From: an uncultured Candidatus Nemicrothrix sp.
GTDB taxonomy: Bacteria > Actinomycetota > Acidimicrobiia > Acidimicrobiales > MedAcidi-G1
DNA: 64,000 nt
Direction: 5' to 3'
NCBI GenBank assembly: GCA_913055915.1
Contig: CAJXKL010000003.1
Coordinates: forward strand, 1 to 64,000
Positions 48,437-52,415 of this stretch are shown in pieces (within the stretch, counting starts at the first letter, position 1; every line of letters starts with the position of its first letter). The translations under genes and the position numbers were made by a program. The notes beneath the pieces were generated by a model. That model did no database searches, was not told the origin of the DNA, and saw only the letters and a list, made by a program, of their open reading frames with translations.

Positions 48437-48542
48437 GGCGGCGACCCTAGCCCGCGCCACCTGACACCCACCCCGACCCCGCAGAGACCCGAAACAGGCC
48501 GTGGGCACACCTGCCGCGAGCGGCCGCCATAGGCTCGTCGCC

Positions 48543-49079
48543 GTGCTCGCATGGATCGACCTGGAGATGACAGGACTTGACACCGCTACCGACGTGATCG
48601 TCGAGATAGCCACCCTCATCACCGACAACGACCTTGAACTGGTCGCCGAGGGCCCCGACATCGTCATCCACCAACCGGCGGAGGCCATGGTCCCGATGGG
48701 CGACTACGTGAGGAAGATGCACACCCGAAGCGGGCTGCTGGAGGCAGTCCAAGCATCCACGACCAGCCACGACGAGGCTGCGGCGACAACGCTGGCATTC
48801 CTGAAAGAACACATCACAGAACCGGCCACCGTTCCCCTTTGCGGAAACTCGATCGGTACCGACCGTCGCTTCCTGGCCAGATGGATGCCCGAGATCGAGT
48901 CCTTCCTCCACTACAGGTCGATCGACGTGTCAACGGTCAAGGAGCTGGCTAGGCGCTGGAAGCCCGAACTGCTCGCCTCAGCGCCACCAAAGGCCGGCGG
49001 GCACCGTGCGATAGACGACATCAGGGAATCCCTCGAAGAACTCCGCCATTACCGGACAGGCCTGTTCCAACCCTCCTGA
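48543..49079 (+). CDS. orn: Oligoribonuclease
   Basis: A 178-residue DEDDh 3'-5' exoribonuclease that degrades 2-5-nt RNAs and pGpG to mononucleotides. Catalytic residues: D and E in [12 protein letters not shown] in the [16 protein letters not shown] block and HxxxD in [32 protein letters not shown] is typical. I chose GTG 48543 over the upstream ATG because the family starts directly at this motif. Orn is near-universal in actinobacteria. It is followed by the whiB7 leader. Confidence 0.97.
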
Positions 49080-49143
49080 CCTGCGGTTTTACAGTATCTC
49101 GGATGCCACCGCTAATTCACTTGACGGCCACCACGCATTGGTG

Positions 49144-49171
49144 TTGAGTAGTTACCCGTCATGGTTACCCA
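49144..49171 (+). promoter_or_regulatory. Candidate promoter of the whiB7 leader
   Basis: TTGAGT at 49144-49149, 16 bases, then TACCCA at 49166-49171 (a second TACCCT follows at 49172-49177). It is the only good -35/-10 pair I see between orn and whiB7 and would give a leader of nearly 400 bases. Assigned by eye only. Confidence 0.45.
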
Positions 49172-49260
49172 TACCCTTGGGTGCCTGGCCGGGAGGCAAC
49201 GTGTCCTCCGACAGACGAAATTGCAACAGACAACCCACGAAACGGCAGACAGACAACACT

Positions 49261-49437
49261 ATGCAGTCGATGAAACAGCACCGTCACGGCCAGCCGGCCG
49301 GCGCGCCCGCGTTCTCGCCTCGCGTCGTAAAGCCGGCCTATACGGCCACCTTCACTGCCACATGGACCACGTCCACCCATCTGGGCAAGAACGTGTTCTG
49401 GACCATCCACCAGCGGCCCCGGGAAGCACACAGCTGA
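49261..49437 (+). CDS. Candidate leader ORF in the whiB7 5' region
   Basis: ATG 49261 to TGA 49437, 58 residues (MQSMKQHRHGQPAGAPAFSP and ending WTIHQRPREAHS), basic and His-rich, ending 28 bases before the terminator stem. In mycobacteria and streptomycetes a short upstream ORF governs read-through into whiB7. This is the best-placed ORF here, though shorter overlapping ones exist, for example an ATG near 49362 in another frame. No family match; it may be purely regulatory. Confidence 0.35.
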   Translation: MQSMKQHRHGQPAGAPAFSPRVVKPAYTATFTATWTTSTHLGKNVFWTIHQRPREAHS

Positions 49438-49465
49438 TCAGCTGAAACGCACACCAAACCCCCGA

Positions 49466-49502
49466 GGCCGCCGGAGAAATCCGGCGGCCTTTCCGATTTT
49501 TC
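49466..49502 (+). terminator. Strong intrinsic terminator / attenuator before whiB7
   Basis: GGCCGCCGGA, GAAA tetraloop, TCCGGCGGCC: a perfect 10-bp GC-rich stem, followed by TTTCCGATTTTT. It ends 68 bases before the whiB7 start and lies after the leader ORF. Upstream GCCGGCCGGC (about 49296-49306) could pair with part of the stem as an anti-terminator. Position suits attenuation of whiB7 rather than simple termination of orn, which stops 390 bases earlier. Confidence 0.9.
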
Positions 49503-49569
49503 CACCACCGCCCGACCACCCACCACAAGAGTTCGACGAAATAGCAGTTTCAGAAAGGAAAGAAGAACA

Positions 49570-49905
49570 ATGCAGGCACTCCAGTACGAACCGGAGGTAT
49601 GGCGCGACGAAGCAGCATGCTCGCGCCTCGGCGTTCCACTGGACGTCTTCTTCTCAGAGGACCTCGGCGACATTGCAGCCGCCAAGCGCATCTGTGCCGA
49701 GTGTCCAGCCCTGGCGTCCTGCCTTGAGGGCGCAAGCGCCCGCCGTGAACCGTGGGGCGTGTGGGGCGGCCAACTGTTCATGAACGGCAGGATGCTCGCC
49801 ACCAAACGACGCCGGGGCCGGCCGCCCAAGGTGCCACGTCCCGAAGACCAGCTCCCCGTGGTGCCGATCCCGGCCCACCTCCAGGTCGAACTGAGGTCGG
49901 CCTGA
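49570..49905 (+). CDS. whiB7: WhiB7-type transcriptional regulator
   Basis: A 111-residue iron-sulfur regulator that, with the housekeeping sigma factor, activates intrinsic antibiotic-resistance genes. Four cluster cysteines: C17, C42, C45 and C51. The WhiB turn EPWGVWGGQLF is followed by an AT-hook KRRRGRPPKVPR at about 79-90; the AT-hook separates WhiB7 from other WhiB classes. A ribosome site AAAGGAAAG precedes ATG 49570. The long leader with a terminator upstream fits antibiotic-induced attenuation. Confidence 0.9.
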   Translation: MQALQYEPEVWRDEAACSRLGVPLDVFFSEDLGDIAAAKRICAECPALASCLEGASARREPWGVWGGQLFMNGRMLATKRRRGRPPKVPRPEDQLPVVPIPAHLQVELRSA

Positions 49906-50057: not shown

Positions 50058-50555
50058 GTGTACCGGCTCTCCATCGCCCTGCTGCTCACGGCGTTGGCTT
50101 CCACCTCGTGTGGAACTGAGCCCGATGCATCTCTCACGAGGGACGGAGCACTGGACAGGCCCTTCGAACTGGTCGACGGCGGCACAACGACCCTGGCTGA
50201 ACTCAACAGGGAGGACGGGCGACCAATCGTGGTCAACCTGTGGGCCACGTGGTGTGCACCGTGCCTCGAGGAGATGCCTGACCTCGAGGCCGTTCACCGG
50301 GACCGCAGCGACGAAATCCGGTTCGTGGGCCTCAACATCAGCGACTCGCCCACAAGGGCCGCCCAACGGATAGAGGAGATCGGCATCACCTACCTGCTGG
50401 GCCAGGATCCCGACGGAGGCTTCGTCGCCACCGTGGGTACCGTCGGCCTTCCGGCAACAGCTTTCATCAACAGGTCAGGCAAGCTCGTCCGCGTCCACCA
50501 GGGGCAACTCGACTACGACGGCCTCCAGGCAGCCATCGACGAGTACCTGTCATGA
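50058..50555 (+). CDS. TlpA/ResA-like thioredoxin-fold lipoprotein
   Basis: A 165-residue exported thiol-disulfide oxidoreductase. The N-terminus RLSIALLLTALASTSCGT is a signal ending in a lipobox. The redox site is NLWATWCAPCLEEMPDLEAV (WCAPC), and the cis-Pro segment is VGLPATAFI. I chose GTG 50058. It lies 25 bases before the CcdA-type gene, which would supply it with electrons. Together they probably reduce apocytochrome c or CuA-site cysteines of the oxidase subunit II in this window. Confidence 0.9.
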   Translation: MYRLSIALLLTALASTSCGTEPDASLTRDGALDRPFELVDGGTTTLAELNREDGRPIVVNLWATWCAPCLEEMPDLEAVHRDRSDEIRFVGLNISDSPTRAAQRIEEIGITYLLGQDPDGGFVATVGTVGLPATAFINRSGKLVRVHQGQLDYDGLQAAIDEYLS

Positions 50556-50580
50556 CGACCGCAGCCGACGGTCACTGCCG

Positions 50581-51693
50581 ATGATCGACATCGGCATCGC
50601 CCTGCCGTTCACCCTCGGAATCGTGACAGCCGTCAACCCCTGCGGCTTCGCCATGCTGCCCACCTGGCTCGGGTACTTCATCGGACGAGACACCGACGAC
50701 ACCAGGGCCCGCCCCGAACAGGTGATGCGGGGCCTGGTGGTCAGCCTCACCCTGGCAGGCGCCTTCGTCATGGTGTTCGGCGCACTCGGCCTAGCTGTCA
50801 CCTACCTGGTCAGCGAGGACGCCGTGGCACGACGTACCCCATGGGTGACCGTTGCAATCGGTGCCATGCTGATCCCCTACGGCATAGCAATCCTGGCCGG
50901 CCGCAAACCCAACCTCTCGTTCCTGCTTCCCCGAAAGGGCCCTCGCTCACGGGAACTCTGGTCGGTGTTCGGGTTCGGGGTGTCCTACGCGGTGGTATCG
51001 ATCGGTTGTGCCGCACCGCTGTTTCTATTACACGTAGCGGGCAGCTTCCGGCGCAACGGAATCATCGAGGGCCTCGTCGTTTACCTGGCCTTCGCTGCGG
51101 GCATGGCGGCAGTGCTGACAGCCCTGACCCTTTCTCTGGCGATCGCCCGTGGAGGCGCCGTCCGACACCTCCGGCGACTGCTCCCCCACATCGACCGGAT
51201 CGGAGCGTTCGCCCTGTTACTGGGCGGCACCTACCTGATCATCTACGGCGTCTACGAAATTCGCATTCTCGCCGACGTCAACACCGGCTCGAACCCCATT
51301 GTCGACGCTGTCACGACGCTGCAGGTACACCTCACCAACTGGACCGCCGACGTGGGCGGCACCCGGGTGGGCCTGGCACTGTGGCTCCTCATCTGGACCA
51401 CCGCCATCTGGGGAGTCACACCTGCAGTGGCCGTCCGGAAACGGCGAGACCTCCTGATAGCAACGGCCGTGGCCTGGGCCGTACTGGAGGGCATCATATA
51501 CCGCGGCGAACTGGTCCTCTTCCCCGTGGCCCGCGTCGCCAGCACCTGGCCTGCACGGATCTCACACTGGTTGTCCGACCCGGTTCGGTGGGCAGTTCCA
51601 CTTGAGGTGCTGGTAACAGCCACAACTCTGGCCATTCTCCTCACCTGGGCCCGGGCAGCACTGCAGGGATCCACCGGGCGTCGACACCCGTAG
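50581..51693 (+). CDS. CcdA/DsbD-type transmembrane thiol transporter, extended
   Basis: A 370-residue membrane protein. The first six spans match CcdA, with redox Cys in TAVNPCGFAMLPTWL and in VVSIGCAAPLFLL. A second half of about 170 residues with extra spans (LALWLLIWTTAIWGVTPAVA, then VPLEVLVTATTLAILLTW) is not part of classical CcdA (~230 residues). It carries electrons from cytoplasmic thioredoxin to the outer TlpA-like protein encoded upstream. Role in cytochrome c maturation is inferred. Confidence 0.85.
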   Translation: MIDIGIALPFTLGIVTAVNPCGFAMLPTWLGYFIGRDTDDTRARPEQVMRGLVVSLTLAGAFVMVFGALGLAVTYLVSEDAVARRTPWVTVAIGAMLIPYGIAILAGRKPNLSFLLPRKGPRSRELWSVFGFGVSYAVVSIGCAAPLFLLHVAGSFRRNGIIEGLVVYLAFAAGMAAVLTALTLSLAIARGGAVRHLRRLLPHIDRIGAFALLLGGTYLIIYGVYEIRILADVNTGSNPIVDAVTTLQVHLTNWTADVGGTRVGLALWLLIWTTAIWGVTPAVAVRKRRDLLIATAVAWAVLEGIIYRGELVLFPVARVASTWPARISHWLSDPVRWAVPLEVLVTATTLAILLTWARAALQGSTGRRHP

Positions 51694-51702
51694 GATCCGG
51701 CG

Positions 51703-52086
51703 ATGCCCCGACACATCCCGCGGGTCTCCCCGGCAGTCACCGGCCTCATCGCCATGGGTGGAGCCGCTGGAGCCAGCACAAGGTGGGCTGCCCTCACCCT
51801 CGGGCCGTCGACGACGTTTCCCTGGTCGGTGCTCCTCGTGAACCTGGCCGGCTGCGCCATTCTCGGGGTGCTTGTCGGGCGGGGAGTACACCACAACGCC
51901 CGACTCCTCATCGGCACGGGCTTCTGCGGAGGCCTGACGACCTTTTCCACGTTCACCGTCGAGGCTGCACAGCTCATGCGGACCGACCACCTGGGGATAG
52001 CCGCCGCCTATCTGGCCGCATCCGTTGTCGGTGGTCTCGTCTGCTTCGACCGGGCCCGGGCCCTGACCGCCGAGGCACCCACGTGA
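51703..52086 (+). CDS. crcB: Fluoride channel subunit FluC/CrcB (first of a pair)
   Basis: A 127-residue four-span membrane protein. Motifs: GGAAGASTRW, LLVNLAGCAILGVLVG (Asn of the pore) and GTGFCGGLTTFSTFTVEA (Phe box and sodium-site turn). Fluc channels expel fluoride. When two crcB genes are adjacent the products form heterodimers. The gene ends in a GTGA overlap with the second copy. No fluoride riboswitch is evident before it. Confidence 0.92.
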   Translation: MPRHIPRVSPAVTGLIAMGGAAGASTRWAALTLGPSTTFPWSVLLVNLAGCAILGVLVGRGVHHNARLLIGTGFCGGLTTFSTFTVEAAQLMRTDHLGIAAAYLAASVVGGLVCFDRARALTAEAPT

Positions 52087-52415
52087 GCAACGTCGTCCTC
52101 TTCGCCCTGGTCGCCGCCGCCGCTACAGCGCTCCGGATTGTTGCCGTCCACATCTGGCCGGGTGCAGAACGCGGCACCCTGCTCGTGAACGTGGCGGGTT
52201 CGTTCGCCCTCGGCCTGATGGCGGGGCTCACAGGACCGGCCGTGACGATCATCGGCGCCGGCGGCCTGGGTGCCCTGACCACGTTCTCGGCATTCGTAGC
52301 CGACACCTCAGCCGTTGCTGACGAACGGGGTGTCAGGTCCAGCGCCGCCTACGTGTCGCTGACCCTTGTCGGGGGAACGCTGGCAGCACTAGCCGGCATC
52401 GCCCTGGCCGGATGA
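52083..52415 (+). CDS. crcB: Fluoride channel subunit FluC/CrcB (second of a pair)
   Basis: A 110-residue partner: LRIVAVHIWPGAERGTLLVN, VAGSFALGLMAGLTG and GAGGLGALTTFSAFVADT keep the Asn and the GxLTTFS Phe motif. It is shorter than the first copy at the N-terminus. Start is GTG 52083 overlapping the first crcB stop. Paired genes commonly encode opposite-topology subunits. It converges on serS with four bases between. Confidence 0.9.
   Translation: MSNVVLFALVAAAATALRIVAVHIWPGAERGTLLVNVAGSFALGLMAGLTGPAVTIIGAGGLGALTTFSAFVADTSAVADERGVRSSAAYVSLTLVGGTLAALAGIALAG

Follow-up and report, generated by a model that had tools for sequence, protein, structure and literature searches.

The window, a stretch of 64,000 nucleotides, belongs to a genome of 2.1 Mb in 41 contigs, whose closest named relatives are Acidimicrobiales assemblies of marine origin, MedAcidi-G1 included; its family is represented by metagenome or single-cell assemblies. 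Two co-oriented genes frame the region analyzed here, of which the second is preceded by a likely ribosome-binding site:

48522-49079, forward strand (co-oriented with whiB7): orn, oligoribonuclease (NCBIfam, E 4.9e-76)
49554-49559, forward strand: AAAGGA, likely ribosome-binding site of whiB7, seen in the sequence
49570-49905, forward strand: whiB7, 111 aa (ORF reading, motifs, Pfam, structure match)

The identification of whiB7 by four cluster cysteines, GVWGG and an AT-hook, proposed in an earlier note on this DNA, was confirmed by motifs, by Pfam and by a structure match. The ORF contains the four cluster cysteines, REPWGVWGG and RRGRPPK. According to the available text of PMC10727445, WhiB7 is defined by EPW adjoining GVWGG plus an RGRP AT-hook, and both motifs are present in the product of 49570-49905. 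The Pfam family Whib matches the ORF with an E value of 4.9e-14, and the best match among solved structures is M. tuberculosis WhiB7 (7kif, E 6.9e-15), followed by the next different paralogue at E 2.1e-7. By these comparisons, the gene product appears closer to WhiB7 than to other WhiB paralogues. A PHROGs search led to WhiB families, and no family assignment for WhiB7 was returned by NCBIfam and PADLOC.

Downstream of whiB7, a TlpA-like redoxin gene is followed by a DsbD/CcdA-like gene (both within 50059-51693) and by an adjacent pair of CrcB genes of the fluoride channel family (51703-52415), with serS on the opposite strand. A redox link of WhiB7 is possible in this TlpA-like/DsbD-like neighbourhood.

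For the comparison with relatives, 109 candidate whiB7 loci (L001, L006-L034 and L035-L113) were used; L002-L005, which encode other Wbl proteins from the same genome, were left uncounted. L098-L113, 16 of a set of 79 loci, were set aside as other Wbl proteins with a best-segment identity of 41-49%, and after removal of 17 duplicates from the remaining 93 loci, 76 distinct Acidimicrobiia whiB7 loci were obtained. L091, which contains N, was dropped from the antiterminator duplex, arm-swap and uORF reference sets, and L058, which is short upstream, from the controlled uORF count and the promoter and P1 counts. The loci are related, so the counts are not independent of each other.

Elements of the predicted leader

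The following elements were assigned upstream of whiB7, including an upstream ORF (uORF) and two mutually overlapping RNA structures:

49113-49117, forward strand: AT-rich box with the sequence TAATT, separated by 3 bp from the downstream -35 element, predicted site of the WhiB7 AT-hook (pattern)
49121-49126, forward strand: -35 element TTGACG (most loci have a conserved TTGAC ahead of the uORF)
49144-49149, forward strand: -10-like TTGAGT, 17 nt downstream of the -35 element, non-consensus (conserved in the alignments of family f1)
49261-49437, forward strand: uORF of 58 codons with ATG start and C-terminus NVFWTIHQRPREAHS (conservation, pN/pS)
49410-49423, forward strand: 5' arm of the antiterminator, within the final codons of the uORF (fold, duplex, arm-swap)
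49431-49444, forward strand: hairpin P1, which encloses the stop codon of the uORF, TGA 49435-49437 (fold against shuffles)
49461-49474, forward strand: antiterminator 3' arm, formed by the 5' flank and 5' arm of the terminator (duplex, covariation, fold)
49464-49501, forward strand: intrinsic terminator, a 12-pair stem (49464-49491) followed by a split U-tract (sequence, fold)

The 58-codon ORF described earlier as ending just before the stem was found again, its stop codon ending 26 nt before the stem. Counterparts are present in 67 of 71 Acidimicrobiia loci, compared with 4.5 +/- 2.0 in dinucleotide shuffles and with three of 71 on the reverse strand in the same position. In 68 of 72 loci the uORF starts with ATG, and its stop codon begins 24-38 nt before the stem. 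pN/pS was computed in six groups of loci, out of the 68 with a uORF. Within the window's genus it amounts to 0.63 in the uORF frame versus 1.15 and 1.57 in the shifted frames, and in five of the six groups the true frame is the best one (0.38-0.74 versus 0.73-3.33 shifted); the exception is the sister genus g4 with 0.98 versus 0.74 and 0.88. These values point to weak purifying selection on the uORF body. The last 11 codons show zero synonymous change in the window's genus and a pS of 0 in g1 and g3, as expected if the RNA is constrained. Overall, the uORF is conserved beyond chance and may be translated; a convincing ribosome-binding site was not found before its ATG at 49261.

Two other readings of this region were rejected. 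The overlapping frame 49161-49445 (94 codons), although open in the genus too, has the worst pN/pS there, namely 1.57, and contains three to six stops per locus in the genera g2 and g3. An extension of the uORF to 99 codons from TTG 49138 would begin ahead of the predicted -10 element, and the start conserved throughout the genus is ATG 49261.

The perfect 10-bp stem-loop with a T-run, reported earlier to lie 68 nt before whiB7, is present: 49466-49475 pairs with 49480-49489 around a GAAA loop, the stem extends to 12 pairs, and 68 nt separate the end of the T-run from the whiB7 ATG. The T-run itself is interrupted, with TTT (49490-49492) and TTTTT (49497-49501) separated by CCGA. The structure folds with -25.8 kcal/mol (z -5.5), and none of 200 shuffles was as good. 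A consensus terminator scan alone is weak, as it gave three terminator-like sites in 2.2 kb versus 1.8 expected. A terminator was detected by script upstream of whiB7 in 72 of the 76 distinct loci and by eye in three of the other four, which results in 75 of 76; L094 is the sole locus in which none was seen by eye. The stem core GGCCG is kept across loci (AGCCG in a few) and the remaining stem positions change. Inside the family the stem is nearly invariant, so that a covariation test there was uninformative. From sequence and fold, a Rho-independent terminator is predicted to be active between the uORF and whiB7.

Pairing of 49410-49423 with 49461-49474 would form an antiterminator that encloses P1 and shares a strand with the terminator. 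Folding of 49410-49475 resulted in -27.8 kcal/mol (z -3.8). In a 96-nt fold covering both structures, the antiterminator is the minimum and the terminator the centroid, so the two are predicted to be close in energy and mutually exclusive. The earlier note had suggested aligning the leaders of relatives for a conserved antiterminator, and such an element was found, with arms that co-vary. The antiterminator duplex reached the threshold of at or below 10 of 200 shuffles in 63 of 71 loci (mean z -3.2) and missed it in eight. For 29 divergent representatives, own arms average -27.2 kcal/mol versus -21.5 kcal/mol for swapped arms, and the sum of the own-arm pairings was equalled in none of 20000 permutations. 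The same test was insignificant for three upstream decoys (z 0.82, 0.22 and -1.63) and for a post-terminator control (z -1.10), and it was still significant for a 12-nt arm alone (z -3.86).

In the 34-sequence family alignment, 28 cells of antiterminator and P1 are changed on both sides versus 9.4 when shuffled, and 88.1% of the cells are paired versus 26.7-49.5% when slid; counted per pair, both partners have changed in four, which does not stand out from the shuffles (2.9). The antiterminator of the window holds a C-A mismatch at a position that is unpaired in 22 of 32 distinct family sequences. A scoring with a fixed register was discarded, as it placed part of the loci in wrong registers. 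Of 26 representatives, 17 have a P1 that folds more stably than 95% of shuffles (mean z -2.58); the P1 of the window itself is weaker (15/200). Within the family, both partners have changed in two of the five P1 pairs. The structure of P1 is kept while its sequence is not, and it is visible in Streptomyces-like leaders too. Taken together, these comparisons point to an antiterminator that uses overlapping uORF and terminator sequence.

WhiB7 is described as acting via a motif rich in A and T immediately before the -35 element of its own promoter (available text of PMC3905903 and PMC10727445), and the layout of AT-rich box and -35 element in the window is shared with WhiB7 sites of M. abscessus (PMC10727445, in the part available). 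With the AT-rich box 3 bp before the -35 element, the promoter has the layout expected for autoregulation, and a start site near 49156 is predicted. The combined pattern of AT-rich box and -35 element, WWWWWNNNTTGAC, occurs in 65 of 71 loci versus 0.89 expected, a count that describes conservation and is not an independent test, since these loci also supplied the pattern. A stricter promoter pattern has a single match in the 2.1 Mb genome, at 49113-49149, and a relaxed one adds a single match inside an ORF. A search of the same genome for WhiB7 targets with a consensus -10 element gave no match. Since the stricter pattern occurs once in this genome, any further targets of WhiB7 would need promoters that deviate from it.

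Probable transcription attenuation and alternative explanations

The conserved uORF, the co-varying antiterminator, P1, the conserved terminator and the WhiB7-type promoter upstream of the uORF, all established by comparison, support the control of whiB7 by a ribosome-sensing transcription attenuator, to which we assign a probability of about 0.9. Control by a translated leader, as put forward in the earlier note, thus has good support from the comparisons. The elements would act as follows, in a scheme that predicts the start site, translation of the uORF, termination and induction by drugs. A leader RNA would begin near 49156 at the WhiB7-type promoter. If the uORF is translated to its stop codon, the ribosome would hide P1 together with a portion of the antiterminator 5' arm; for a footprint of the usual size, it would presumably occupy about 49418-49448. 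With the arm covered, the stem 49464-49491 could form and transcription would end near 49501. If ribosomes slow down or are blocked earlier in the uORF, by an antibiotic or by amino-acid shortage, 49410-49423 would remain free to pair with 49461-49474 and to sequester the 5' arm of the terminator, so that the polymerase could enter whiB7. The WhiB7 made in this way would activate its own promoter.

The stem might instead be the ordinary terminator of orn, with whiB7 transcribed from its own start site at 49502-49570, an arrangement that the co-oriented position of orn upstream in the genus would allow. However, the stem is located 385 nt beyond orn. In 39 of the 76 loci orn was unmatched in the fetched stretch, yet the leader persists, and in most other loci orn lies about 1-2.5 kb upstream and the leader is kept. 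A start site at 49502-49570, named in the earlier note as the observation that would speak against its reading, is not favoured: a promoter scan found no promoter-like site in 49502-49569, relatives show no conservation of this spacer and differ in its length, and the only intergenic genome match to the promoter pattern of whiB7 leaders lies upstream of the uORF, where the WhiB7-type promoter is conserved. A role as orn terminator is highly improbable on these grounds. We regard a ligand-binding riboswitch or a protein-bound leader, which would not sense translation, as highly improbable too. The leader is structured and conserved, as such an element would be, but its antiterminator arm is uORF coding sequence, and no Rfam family matches the leader at the gathering score; at a permissive threshold, the best match reached 17.4 bits versus a cut-off of 35.

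The remaining alternatives differ from the attenuator favoured here in what the ribosome would respond to. Drug-dependent stalling at the C-terminal QRPR, with the uORF product as an arrest peptide, is unlikely. An RP motif is frequent at the uORF C-terminus (FWTIHQRPR, KPYGNQRPSG, FKPYSVRPR and others) and recurs across loci, the last 11 codons have a pN/pS of 0.28 in the 11-sequence KPY group, and the Arg-x-Arg of the uORF C-terminus resembles the +x+ macrolide arrest motif. The motif lies inside the antiterminator arm, however, so stalling at this site should keep the antiterminator from forming. Moreover, the same codons are conserved as RNA in the family (pS 0 in g1 and g3), the residues vary where pairing is kept (RPW, RPS, RPK), and uORFs of other classes have different ends. 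A classical attenuator in which a run of control codons senses a single amino acid is quite unlikely: the uORF contains no run of a single residue, Trp is not enriched in 26 representatives (1.22-fold), and the uORF composition differs between genera. Thr, Lys and Asn are about twofold in the uORFs of these representatives. In favour of amino-acid sensing, starvation, that of alanine included, is described as inducing whiB7 elsewhere (available text of PMC11550727 and PMC10727445).

Distribution and comparison with known leaders

A covariance model of the leader (R1) was built from the family loci. Of 37 family genomes, 34 contain a single R1 match, located next to whiB7; the other three, which are 69-88% complete, have neither an R1 match nor a whiB7-grade match. 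As the family genomes supplied R1 itself, what counts in this result is that the leader occurs once per genome and that leader and whiB7 are missing together. In 197 genomes of the class, R1 matched 33 times at E <=0.05; these matches are weak outside the family, were counted regardless of adjacency to whiB7 and were given no weight in either direction.

A whiB7-grade match could be found in 43 of 246 genomes drawn from the phylum. From outside the class, 14 loci were chosen in which a typed or a general motif allowed a stem to be placed, and L116, L117 and others were left out; the 14 comprise eight presumably Streptomyces-like loci of one genus, Nonomuraea, Nocardia and four others. In all 14, the uORF stop lies 18-31 nt before the stem and the duplex of uORF end and stem is at or below 7 of 200 shuffles. 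The earlier note regarded the leader, on account of its different sequence, as an independent example. Independence is not supported: the primary sequence does differ from that of the model species, but all 14 whiB7 loci selected from other Actinomycetota have their parts in the same order and with similar spacing. One shared design, which may itself have arisen by common descent, therefore describes the leader best.

In the Streptomyces-like loci, the uORF stop is located 27-31 nt before the stem, and the hairpin at the stop codon, the GGCCG stem and the complementary last codons are present as in the window. In contrast, most of these uORFs end in MWAFRGPEPWSDPA, and their stem is longer than that of the window and has an interior mismatch. 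A study of the wblC (whiB7) leader of Streptomyces was reportedly published by Lee et al. in Mol Microbiol in 2022. The mycobacterial leader, as far as described in the available parts of PMC4128351, PMC10727445 and PMC13236596, likewise has a uORF followed by a terminator and an antiterminator that spans both, and its AT-rich box also lies 3 bp before the -35 element (PMC10727445). Its start is located about 350 nt upstream of the start codon, compared with about 414 nt predicted here, and its uORF follows a Shine-Dalgarno motif by about 10 nt (PMC4128351), whereas none is clear in the window. The attenuators of ARE ABCF genes, in the available text of PMC12421871, also combine a short uORF with a terminator/antiterminator switch that senses translation inhibitors, a drug response that is presumed for the window; unlike the leader described here, they control other genes, have very short uORFs and stall ribosomes at the start codon.

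Attenuation of whiB7/wblC is established in mycobacteria and Streptomyces (PMC11550727, PMC10727445, PMC4128351, each in the part available), with further literature in PMC13236596, PMC13393426 and PMC4255298 (likewise available in part). uORF leaders with an antiterminator overlapping uORF and terminator are called typical of actinobacterial whiB7 (PMC10727445). A whiB7 clade is reported in the marine MedAcidi-G1 family, with no mention of a leader in the available text (PMC10205998), and a description of Acidimicrobiia whiB7 leaders was not found in the open-access literature searched. The mechanism is thus already known, and its predicted occurrence in Acidimicrobiia, uncultured ocean lineages included, would add a class for which no description was found to the mycobacteria and streptomycetes in which whiB7 is under ribosome-mediated control. 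The comparative evidence, namely the co-varying antiterminator and the stop-codon hairpin, is strong enough to position testable mutations, and the natural leader variants collected could help to dissect how the switch is tuned.

The TlpA-like redoxin gene was found near whiB7 in 71 of the 76 loci (tblastn, E 1e-8), in 69 of them on the same strand and mostly 0.4-1 kb downstream from the whiB7 start. This linkage, together with the finding that only the promoter of whiB7 fits the leader-derived pattern, would agree with a very small WhiB7 circuit. Speculatively, and with a low likelihood, WhiB7 may connect translation stress with its own expression and with a redox operon nearby, and not with a broad antibiotic-resistance regulon, with the switch as an ancestral unit of the phylum that serves a tiny circuit in small marine genomes.

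In Tsukamurella, a 67-codon ORF (L116:1001-1204), annotated as hypothetical protein, precedes a WhiB gene and may be a leader ORF.
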